Positions 308 to 16,988 of a stretch of 16,988 nucleotides of DNA are shown here, piece after piece. The position numbers were made by a program, and so were the translations under genes. The notes under the pieces were generated by a model, which ran no database searches, had not been told where the DNA came from, and saw only the letters and a program-made list of their open reading frames with translations. Within the stretch, counting starts at the first letter, position 1. Every line of letters starts with the position of its first letter. The DNA comes from Victivallales bacterium (lineage in GTDB: Bacteria; Verrucomicrobiota; Lentisphaeria; Oligosphaerales; Oligosphaeraceae): contig JAGCSE010000081.1 of assembly GCA_017964325.1 (NCBI GenBank), forward strand, positions 1 to 16,988. Direction: 5' to 3'.

Positions 308-374
308 GTGATTAGTGGTTAGTGGTTAGTGGGCGGGAGGGCTGCGCTCCTGCGCGGCCTGTGGTTAGTGGCTA
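308..374. repeat. Heptamer tandem array interrupted by a GC-rich hairpin
   Basis: On the plus strand the units are GTGATTA (308-314), GTGGTTA (315-321), GTGGTTA (322-328) and a degenerate GTGGGCG (329-335). A 25-base GC-rich insert follows (336-360), then GTGGTTA (361-367) and GTGGCTA (368-374). The insert contains GGCTGCGC-TCCT-GCGCGGCC, an 8-bp stem with one G-U pair and a 4-base loop. The last unit holds the stop codon of the MBL-fold gene (TAG, reverse strand 374-372). On both strands the unit carries a stop trinucleotide every 7 bases, giving stops in all three frames. There is no T-tract, so it is not a standard intrinsic terminator. Function unknown. Confidence 0.8.
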
Positions 375-13359: not shown

Positions 13360-13449
13360 ATAGATATTCTAGAGAGTCTAGAGTTTCTAGAATATCTAGA
13401 GCCTCTAGCAAATCTAGAGAGTCTAGAGCTTCTAGCGAATCTAGGATAT
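13360..13449 (+). repeat. 9-bp tandem array with invariant CTAG core
   Basis: CTAG starts at 13369, 13378, 13387, 13396, 13405, 13414, 13423, 13432 and 13441, exactly every 9 bases. A degenerate tenth unit (ATAG) is at 13360. Unit consensus is CTAGAGnnT; T closes every unit. Six junctions read TCTAGA, a palindrome, so neighbouring units can pair. The array ends 5 bases before the araB Shine-Dalgarno (13455-13460). It could be an iterated regulator site, a leader structure, or slippage-grown sequence; no known element matches. Confidence 0.9.
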
Positions 13450-16087: not shown

Positions 16088-16088
16088 A

Positions 16089-16109
16089 GCTCAAAGCTTA
16101 AAGCAAATA
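16089..16109 (+). repeat. Heptamer array, second copy of the GCTnAAA element
   Basis: GCTCAAA, GCTTAAA and GCAAATA in exact 7-base register start one base after the TAG stop of the NagA-like gene. The copy at 13320-13340 differs at two positions. A short palindrome GGAAAA-TAGT-TTTTCC (16128-16143) follows before the Nudix gene. Confidence 0.75.
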
Positions 16110-16172
16110 CAAAAGTTGAGAAGCACAGGAAAATAGTTTTTCCAAAAAAGATAATGTTTGTTGGATGTTGAT

Positions 16173-16742
16173 ATGAAACCAGAAATCGTAAAGACGACGG
16201 AATTGGCGGCGGGGCGTTTCCTGCGGCTGGATTTGCATGAATATCGTGATTCCAAAGGCGTTTTGCGGAAATGGGAGGCGGCGCACCGTCAGAAGGCGCA
16301 GGCGGCCGTGTATATTTTGGCGATTCTGAAGCCGAGCAATCGGTTGGTCGTGCTACGGCAGTATCGTGTTCCAATCAACGCTTATTGCATTGAATGCCCA
16401 GCAGGGCTGATCGACGACGGTGAAGAACCTGTTGTTGCTGCGGAACGTGAATTGATGGAGGAAACAGGCTATGTCGGAAAAGTCGAATGGCAGAGCGGTG
16501 CAACGTGCAGTTCGGCGGGTATGACAAGCGAAATGGTGACGATCTTCCGTATGTCGATTGACGAAACGCTGCCGGAAAACAAGTCTCCGAAACAGCATTT
16601 GGATGATGGCGAGGAAATAGACGTCAAATTGGTTCCGTTGTCGGAACTGGATGTGTTTTTAAAGGAACGCATCCAGGCGGGCGACAAGCTTGATTCGCGA
16701 ATCGCCGCCTGGAGTGCAGCTTTTTCAATGAGTAATGAGTAA
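16173..16742 (+). CDS. Nudix hydrolase, ADP-ribose pyrophosphatase type
   Basis: 189 residues from ATG 16173, the first ATG in frame; TTG codons at 16158 and 16161 are alternatives, and the ribosome site is weak (GGA). The Nudix box is complete: Gly78, Glu84, Arg92-Glu93-Leu94, Glu96-Glu97, Gly99, in the spacing G-x5-E-x7-REU-x-EE-x-GU. The preceding ECPAGLID and the later ATCSSAGMTSE are typical of the ADP-ribose pyrophosphatase (NudF-like) group, which hydrolyses ADP-ribose to AMP and ribose 5-phosphate. It is cytoplasmic and probably a dimer. Its last residues, MSNE, and its TAA stop are encoded by units of the heptamer array at 16727-16789, so the natural C-terminus seems to have been replaced or extended by repeat sequence. 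Confidence 0.9.
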   Translation: MKPEIVKTTELAAGRFLRLDLHEYRDSKGVLRKWEAAHRQKAQAAVYILAILKPSNRLVVLRQYRVPINAYCIECPAGLIDDGEEPVVAAERELMEETGYVGKVEWQSGATCSSAGMTSEMVTIFRMSIDETLPENKSPKQHLDDGEEIDVKLVPLSELDVFLKERIQAGDKLDSRIAAWSAAFSMSNE

Positions 16743-16789
16743 TGAGTCATGAGTAATGAAACATTAATCATTAATCATTAATCATTAAT
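16727..16789. repeat. Nine heptamers in one register across a convergent gene junction
   Basis: Units of exactly 7 bases: AATGAGT three times (16727-16747), CATGAGT, AATGAAA, then CATTAAT four times (16762-16789). The left half ends the Nudix gene (stop TAA 16740-16742). The right half ends the cupin gene on the other strand (stop 16787-16785). TAATG and CATTA pair around an AAA loop, and the pairing continues outward with about one mismatch per heptamer, giving an imperfect hairpin between two convergent genes. It may act as a bidirectional transcript end. Confidence 0.9.
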
Positions 16790-16988
16790 AAGTTACTACG
16801 AGGGCTATGATTTCGAGTGTTTCATCGCCGACGCATTCGACGGAATGGGAGTTGCCTTGGCCCGTGAGGACGGTGTCGCCGACGTTGAGTTCCGTGACGG
16901 TTCCCGCATCATTGACTTTTCCTGTGCCTTTGACTACGATATAGACTTCGTCTTCCCCCTCATGGGCATGGAGCCCGATGCCCGCACC
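16785..16988 (-). CDS. Cupin-domain protein, C-terminal 67 residues (cut by window edge)
   Basis: The reverse strand from the window edge is open for 67 codons to TAA at 16787-16785. It contains GLHAHEGEDEVYIVVKGTG, the first cupin motif with metal-ligand His-x-His and Glu, and VGDTVLTGQGNSHSVE, the second motif with its His. It is a small single-domain cupin (cupin_2 type), cytoplasmic as far as can be seen. Ligand and reaction are unknown; such proteins include sugar isomerases and small-molecule binders. The start is outside the window. It converges on the Nudix gene, and its stop codon belongs to a CATTAAT heptamer. Confidence 0.85.
   Translation of the reverse strand, partial: GAGIGLHAHEGEDEVYIVVKGTGKVNDAGTVTELNVGDTVLTGQGNSHSVECVGDETLEIIALVVTY

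Follow-up and report, generated by a model that had tools for sequence, protein, structure and literature searches.

The nine-unit heptanucleotide array between a Nudix hydrolase gene and a convergent cupin gene in the DNA analyzed here (the window, a stretch of 16,988 nucleotides from a Victivallales bacterium) is probably one of a few hundred heptamer arrays that lie between genes in a group of gut bacteria. Extrapolation from sampled DNA of close relatives, which are Victivallales metagenome-assembled genomes (MAGs), gives about 230-350 arrays in a genome of about 5 Mb, based on merged arrays (22 in 463 kb, and 34 in 480 kb for the relative G026). It is reasonably likely that the array belongs to a genome-wide, lineage-specific population of heptanucleotide simple sequence repeats that change by slippage and occupy permissive sites. 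The features at the junction are as follows.

16173..16742, plus strand: Nudix hydrolase gene (PF00293), from the open reading frame (ORF) list, Pfam and the starts of relatives.
16727..16789, no strand assigned: heptanucleotide array of nine units that takes up the entire gap between the convergent genes, from reading of the sequence and Tandem Repeats Finder (TRF).
16727..16761, plus strand: first half of the array, AATGAGT three times, CATGAGT and AATGAAA, from the same two sources.
16762..16789, plus strand: second half of the array, CATTAAT four times, from the same two sources.
16785..16988, minus strand: C-terminal part of a Cupin_2 gene (PF07883) that continues beyond the window, from the ORF list and Pfam.

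The Nudix gene starts with an ATG, as in most close relatives (the ORF list begins it at a TTG, 16158), and ends with ATG AGT AAT GAG TAA at 16728-16742, which encodes MSNE followed by the stop TAA at 16740-16742. The minus-strand cupin gene ends with TAT TAA TGA, its stop TAA at 16787-16785 lying inside the last array unit. Direct reading bears out the preliminary description that the 7-base register is unbroken over the nine units of 16727-16789, that the Nudix MSNE and stop are array units, and that the convergent cupin stop is in the other half. TRF reports the array as two parts, AATGAGT at 16727-16759 and CATTAAT at 16762-16789. The switch between them changes three bases, keeps the register, and turns the unit into nearly its reverse complement; CATTAAT reads ATTAATG on the minus strand, in phase AATGATT, which is one base from the first-half unit, and the halves are therefore inverted. 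A recurrence of TAA every 7 bases, also described earlier, is not strict, as TAA starts at 16733, 16740, 16754, 16765, 16772, 16779, 16786, and 16789, so that the 7-base spacing occurs within the array halves only and with gaps. The related claim of frame closure stands for the whole array, which has a stop in every frame of both strands, but within the first half by itself two of the three minus-strand frames remain open. Because of these open frames, a minus-strand ORF of 100 residues (16469-16771), probably spurious, begins in the array and extends backward across the Nudix gene.

Within the window, a two-unit pattern with at most 3 mismatches has 8 matches, compared with 0.96 on average and never more than 4 across 200 shuffles, and exact period-7 runs of 18 bases or longer number 3 (two of them inside the junction array), compared with 0 in 3 shuffles. 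Two further elements were recorded.

308..332, plus strand: second array, unit GTGGTTA (AACCACT class), from the ORF list, TRF and the period-7 scan.
16088..16110, plus strand: short AAAGCTTAAAGCAAATAC element directly past the amidohydrolase stop, from a word count.

The GTGGTTA array lies between the start of a minus-strand gene (1-303) and the end of another (372-980). An 18-base word of the AAAGCTTAAAGCAAATAC element has 8 copies in the sampled sequence, including that of the window, and all 8 are intergenic. A TCTAGA-rich tandem array with 9-base and 27-base periods is present at 13361-13449, between the Gfo/Idh/MocA and FGGY kinase genes; the same gap holds similar TCTAGA-rich repeats in G026 and ATTATGC/A heptamers in L001 and L002. 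An Rfam scan of the window gave no match at gathering scores.

A scan of genome contigs identified two close relatives, L001 and L002, which are Victivallales MAGs from water buffalo reticulum and omasum; the genomes behind them are referred to as G001 and G002, and G026 is a third close relative. These two closest named relatives, with 83-85% protein identity, agree with the earlier assignment of the host to a PVC-type bacterium. A 19-base AATGAKT pattern with at most 2 mismatches has 74 and 103 matches in G001 and G002, compared with 26 and 28 for its reversed control, overlapping matches being scored separately. Where contigs were picked by number, G001 shows 11 exact period-7 runs (18 bases or longer) over 213 kb and G002 shows 14 over 261 kb, and three shuffles gave none. 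For G026, there are 38 in 480 kb, and periods 4 to 12 give 8, 4, 2, 38, 9, 14, 1, 1, and 1 runs, making 9 the second-commonest period (14 runs). G001, G002, and the window together hold 105 runs in 829 kb, a sample partly chosen for arrays, whereas more distant organisms hold 6 in 1.03 Mb (67 loci), and a set of mostly other Lentisphaerota and Planctomycetota holds 1 in 161 kb (11 loci, L003-L013, including two Planctomycetota records and one Kiritimatiellota record). The count of 7-mer arrays in relatives that had been proposed as a check thus came out far above shuffles in the sampled stretches of G001, G002, and G026. Densities and junction counts are biased upward for L081-L110, which were fetched for their arrays, and for L111-L130, which are G002 contigs nearly all listed beforehand as array-bearing; L131-L170 (with previously used contigs excluded) and the contigs of G026 were chosen by number. 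From G001, five small contigs that read as N were left out, and the array-counting script halves the window array, which is consequently counted twice.

Contig ends coincide with these arrays, 6 of 61 lying within 60 bp of one against about 0.17 expected, as would be expected if the real arrays are longer or are shared between loci. Array lengths in MAGs may accordingly be collapsed, and to this extent the coincidence fits an origin of the arrays in chance or misassembly. We regard such an origin as barely credible, given the shuffles, the presence of arrays well inside G026 contigs of 223 and 227 kb, and the array at the Nudix-cupin junction in the window, G001, G002, and G026, since independent assemblies make an artefact very unlikely. 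Perfect arrays of 83, 86, and 110 bases were observed at L135 11568-11650 (ACTAGCC), at L147 1-86 (ACCACTG), and in a G019 stretch, L236 or L256 (ACTAGCC). Those in L135 and L147 sit at contig ends, which hints that short-read assemblies understate the true length of arrays. In practical terms, the arrays coincide with the breaks in MAG assemblies.

The arrays draw on a limited vocabulary. The 146 runs comprise 31 units, and the 12 units seen at least 3 times cover 119 of them; the commonest, AACCACT, accounts for 24 runs in the sampled relatives and the window, and is the class of the array at 308-332. The recurring units are related and mostly AT-rich, AAGCATT being one base from each of AAAGCTT, AATGCTG, AATCATT, and AATGCAT. 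Among 26 in-register unit switches within merged arrays, a set to which the switch at the center of the window array does not belong, 16 are one-base changes. No recurring unit contains GGG on either strand (0 of 12), and AATGAGT and CATTAAT lack a G run. Self-complementarity was considered as a shared property of the units and rejected, as 3 of the 12 recurring units are self-complementary at distance 1 against 12.7% expected, which is not clearly above composition. Dispersed GC-rich words are also found in intergenic DNA of L111-L170, L001, L002, and the window, for example the 14-mers AACCGCCGAGCAGA in 16 gaps and CACGAATGGACACG in 13, and a CCGCCTTCGGCGG hairpin adjoins AAAGCTT elements in L001 and L002.

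The distribution of the arrays across the family and the phylum is patchy. The CATTAAG/T pattern is found in 4 of 29 family genomes (113 to 279 matches) and has no match in the other 25; its reversed control matches 8 of the 29, six of which lack the pattern itself, hinting at other kinds of heptamer in the control-matching genomes. The CACTAAC pattern occurs in 15 of 288 genomes drawn from the phylum, four of which have more than 100 matches. Small samples of 26 other family genomes (616 kb in total, well under 1% of bases for most genomes) contain period-7 runs in 9, often with units of their own, such as AATTAGG in G023 and AATTCTC in G027. Mismatch repair acts poorly on 7-base loops. MutS1 is encoded in all 12 genomes tested and MutL in 11 of the 12, with both present in the array-rich genomes, and therefore no loss of mismatch repair is needed; on these counts, it was rejected as a cause. 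The sole tested genome without MutL, G003, has no period-7 run in a 20 kb sample.

In the sampled genomes, the arrays hug gene edges and shun divergent gaps. Mostly intergenic positions are occupied by 109 of 120 arrays in DNA that is about 85% coding. Genes were called by a codon-usage script, which found 13 genes in the window, matching the ORF list and five Pfam checks, with start codons remaining uncertain. After 22 of the 120 arrays were dropped as lying at contig ends or as unplaceable, 98 could be set between two called genes. Divergent gaps hold 5 of these against 17.1 expected (1 against 5.7 in G026 alone). Arrays that overlap a stop or lie within 15 bp of one number 42 of 98, with 11.6 expected, and for starts the number is 31 of 98, with 12.1 expected. 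When each array is held in its own gap, the expected numbers rise to 31.4 for stops (P 0.004) and 24.0 for starts (P 0.033). G026, an unselected sample, has 13 near stops against 3.4 expected and 6 near starts against 3.5 (P 0.12). As to the tie to stop codons proposed in the preliminary description, stops are enriched, but so are starts in the pooled sample, and in tandem gaps the closer codon is the stop for 35 arrays and the start for 34. The samples also disagree, with stop-to-start ratios in tandem gaps of 15:9 in G026 (P 0.31), 18:13 in the selected G002 contigs (P 0.47), and 2:12 in the rest (P 0.013). A stop-specific placement, strong against random gap positions and with no overall preference in tandem gaps, is thus unsettled rather than refuted.

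These data bear on whether the arrays are kept as translational insurance, supplying stop codons in every frame at the ends of genes. At least one strand contains a stop in every one of the 12 recurring units (0.70 expected from composition), and both strands do in 7 of them (0.23 expected), although the units are not mutually independent. Strand-asymmetric units near stops have the stop-bearing strand as sense in 12 of 15 cases, but this falls to just 7 against 3 where the gene's own stop lies outside the array. In 23 of the 48 cases where an array is in reach of a stop, the stop lies inside the array, and AACCACT lies 9 times one way and 8 times the other. The enrichment of stops above starts, above all in G026, would fit such insurance; the tandem-gap ratios, both overall and by sample, and the open minus-strand frames in the first half of the junction array do not. 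We judge translational insurance to be most improbable.

The consequences of an array that reaches into a gene are visible in the Nudix proteins. A protein search gave 12 relatives (P0001-P0012) with 82-99% identity over 97-98% of the protein and a thirteenth, P0013, with 86% identity over 82%. Twelve of the 13 closest proteins are the same up to AAF and, following one extra residue (S or T), end in MSNE, INN, MLNA, MIN, IHN, or IKN; P0013 is cut differently and has another ending. More distant relatives have other tails, such as LGLGIRW. We infer from the proteins that all 12 tails are array-coded, the corresponding DNA having been seen for the window, L001, L002, and G026. As far as sequence can tell, the arrays appear to rewrite protein C-termini.

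Comparison of orthologous junctions indicates how the arrays turn over. L001 and L002 both have an array at the Nudix-cupin junction, and both contigs stop in it or within about 20 bases beyond it; the units of L002 are ATGAGTA (four times) and ATGCTTA (twice). The G026 gap reads TTTTTCA, then ATTAACA ATTAATA ATTGAAA ATTAATA ATTGATA ATTGATA ATTAATA, that is, seven different ATTAATA-like heptads in the same register as the window, the gap being exactly 14 bases shorter. Of 55 junctions paired across two genomes, with each pair taken in one direction, 8 have arrays in both members, 11 in one only, and 36 in neither (P 0.0017; about 0.03 in each of two length classes). Without L081-L110, the counts are 5, 10, and 36 (51 pairs, P 0.016), and without L111-L130 as well, they are 4, 5, and 20 (29 pairs, P 0.018), although two of the four shared junctions in this last set are one junction in two genomes, so that the pairs are not all independent. 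The units at the eight shared junctions are the same or shared in L094/L126 and L164/G026 C3, one base apart in L082/L119, and otherwise different, for example AATGCTG at L142 (G001) and AACCACT plus AACAATT at L115 (G002). The L115 junction, partner of L142:13040, is scored "none" in the orthologue table, and by eye it is an array with a 14-base higher-order unit. Elsewhere, an AATGAGT array in G001 (L106 1501-1541) corresponds to a 9-mer array of the AATATCCAG class in G002 (L128), in gap pieces of 93 and 91 bases. The gap lengths at the eight shared junctions differ by -79, -24, -22, 2, -280, 66, 2, and -14, and differences over whole orthologous gaps are mostly not multiples of seven, with single-unit differences evident by eye between L094 and L126 and between L001 and L002. 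Some junctions are free of arrays in the other genome, and L002 lacks the AAAGCTT element that is present past the amidohydrolase gene in the window and L001. The arrays seem to change in length and in repeat word at places where this does no damage to a gene or promoter.

Such observations could also reflect templated spread or exchange of arrays between loci, by gene conversion or copying akin to that of mobile elements, with junctions refilled from a common vocabulary. The vocabulary common to unrelated junctions, the unlike units at orthologous ones, the presence or absence of an array at some junctions, a recurring outer boundary, AAAGCAAATAC, that is intergenic in 14 of 15 cases, and the re-use of junctions, weaker once array-selected pieces are removed, are all consistent with this. 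Nonetheless, we consider it unlikely, as the single-base changes in 16 of 26 switches and the position of AAGCATT one base from four other units are what mutation and slippage would produce, no clean insertion scar was seen by eye in the orthologous pairs aligned, and the re-use of sites may reflect long or permissive gaps. A more specific proposal, which we hold to be decidedly unlikely, is that an active process in this clade copies arrays of standard vocabulary into preset junctions and swaps them, such that the address would be inherited and the repeat word exchanged; if true, this would be a non-coding analogue of cassette exchange.

The near-reverse-complement switch at the center of the window array leads to the expectation of a hairpin, which the preliminary description proposed, and one is indeed predicted at this junction (minimum free energy -22.3 kcal/mol, z -3.0, for a 96-base piece), but hairpins are not general across the arrays. 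Shorter window pieces from the two strands give z -3.3 and -4.6, the plus-strand piece with z -3.3 having a fully unpaired centroid structure. In relatives, the Nudix-cupin junction gives z -3.75 (L001), -2.8 (G026), and -1.7 (L002, cut by the contig end). As a class, the arrays fold no better than random intergenic DNA of like GC content, and convergent gaps with an array have a mean z of -1.05 (4 of 22 under -2), compared with -2.16 (31 of 71 under -2) for mid-gap pieces of convergent gaps without one, piece lengths and shuffle numbers being unequal between the two sets. No terminator-like site was found at the window array, and no T run lies past the stem on either strand; an intrinsic terminator would have a GC-rich stem and then a T run. 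Given this and the population folding tests, arrays were rejected as general hairpin terminators. The narrower possibility that the junction array acts for its two convergent genes as a transcription terminator working in both directions, or as a hairpin protecting their 3' ends, would draw on the inverted halves and on a predicted fold that beats shuffles in the window, L001, and G026 despite their unlike units. However, the lower score of L002, the unpaired centroid of one window piece, the lack of a terminator-like site or T run, and the poorer folding of array-bearing convergent gaps argue against it, and we think it very unlikely. The better-than-shuffle predicted hairpin at this junction could be a sign of local selection, and to that extent it counts against a reading by permissive sites.

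The reading that we favor, a slippage-driven population of heptamers at permissive sites, would proceed as follows. Arrays would begin from a small set of related heptamers, whole units would be gained and lost by replication slippage, and the identity of an array would shift as mutated units spread through it. Arrays would then persist where neither coding sequence nor promoter suffers, namely along gene borders and only rarely between divergent genes. In the convergent gap of about 40 bases considered here, the array would have come to fill the whole gap, units with stop codons being tolerated, so both stop codons and the last few Nudix residues would be array-coded. What is observed in the close relatives is the population, its vocabulary and its placement, together with orthologous junctions of which some differ in length by whole units and others in the units themselves. 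That slippage and the spread of units are the mechanism, and that permissiveness rather than function accounts for the placement, we infer. The reading as a whole is favored by the period-7 excess, the recurrence of 12 units in 119 of 146 runs, the predominance of one-base switches (16 of 26), the intergenic bias with few arrays in divergent gaps, the 14-base difference at the Nudix-cupin gap of G026, the varying Nudix tails, and the contig ends at arrays. Less readily explained are the recurrence of about a dozen units at unrelated places, the outright unit differences at one and the same junction, the gap differences that are mostly not simple multiples of seven, and the enrichment of stops above starts in G026, which permissiveness alone need not give. 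The lineage contrast, with the CATTAAG/T kind in 4 of 29 sampled genomes of one family and absent from 25, makes these bacteria a tractable system for asking why seven is favored as a repeat length in bacterial DNA and what lets arrays spread in certain lineages but not in their near relatives.

The STRR repeats of heterocystous cyanobacteria, to which the preliminary description compared the array, consist of several types of heptamer unit in tandem, and the arrays described here are similar in having multiple tandem heptamer types, although in a different phylum (the closest relatives are Victivallales). The wider resemblance to dispersed heptanucleotide arrays known elsewhere also proved right. 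In the part of their study drawn on here, Rehm et al. (2015, PMC4692102) report GGGAATC and GGGGA(C/T)T heptamers in Xanthomonas and Nostoc that are distributed genome-wide and mostly intergenic, rare between divergent ORFs, and often within 50 bp of a stop, some overlapping it; their length varies between relatives, and 83% are at the same place in Xcc and Xac. The present arrays are alike in dispersal, intergenic bias, scarcity in divergent gaps (5 against 17.1 expected), and length variation between relatives, and 42 of 98 lie within 15 bp of a stop, though with no overall stop preference in tandem gaps, so that, judged against that part of the study, their placement largely repeats that of the Xanthomonas and Nostoc heptamers in another phylum and with different units. 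The repeats of Rehm et al. (2015), as described there, are G-rich quadruplex formers with one consensus and a preference for four units, whereas those found here are mostly AT-rich, are of about a dozen kinds, none of them able to serve as a G-rich quadruplex unit, and, in a small sample, are often absent or of another unit in a relative. The TAACTGA direct repeats of Beggiatoaceae, Cyanobacteria, and Bacteroidetes (MacGregor 2015, PMC4679880) are, in the portion of that paper used, likewise intergenic and patchy across relatives, some being split by related 7-mers, with contig ends falling in arrays and mostly 7-base indels between two Cyanothece strains. The present arrays share the intergenic position, the patchiness, the splitting of some arrays by related 7-mers, and the contig ends, but TAACTGA is not among the 31 units here, many units are in use, and there is no consistent preference for starts (35:34), unlike TAACTGA in the BOGUAY genome, which for the most part directly precedes start codons and has a single orientation there (PMC4679880). 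A 2007 survey by Mrazek of long simple sequence repeats of 5-11 nt, as summarized in the same portion of PMC4679880, found heptamers to be the most abundant class in most genomes and proposed polymerase slippage; the above-chance 7-nt tandem units and the non-coding preference are common to both, while a recurring, related vocabulary sets the present arrays apart from what that summary describes. The literature on Lentisphaerota, Victivallales, and Verrucomicrobia, searched by title and abstract with subscription literature largely outside its scope, contained no description of such arrays, and the part consulted of a survey that counts Verrucomicrobia among its phyla (PMC4060949) makes no mention of heptanucleotides or Lentisphaerae. 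Intergenic heptamer arrays near stops are thus, on the parts of these sources drawn on here, already described from Xanthomonas, Nostoc, and Beggiatoaceae, and it is in phylum, vocabulary, and unit turnover that the arrays reported here differ.
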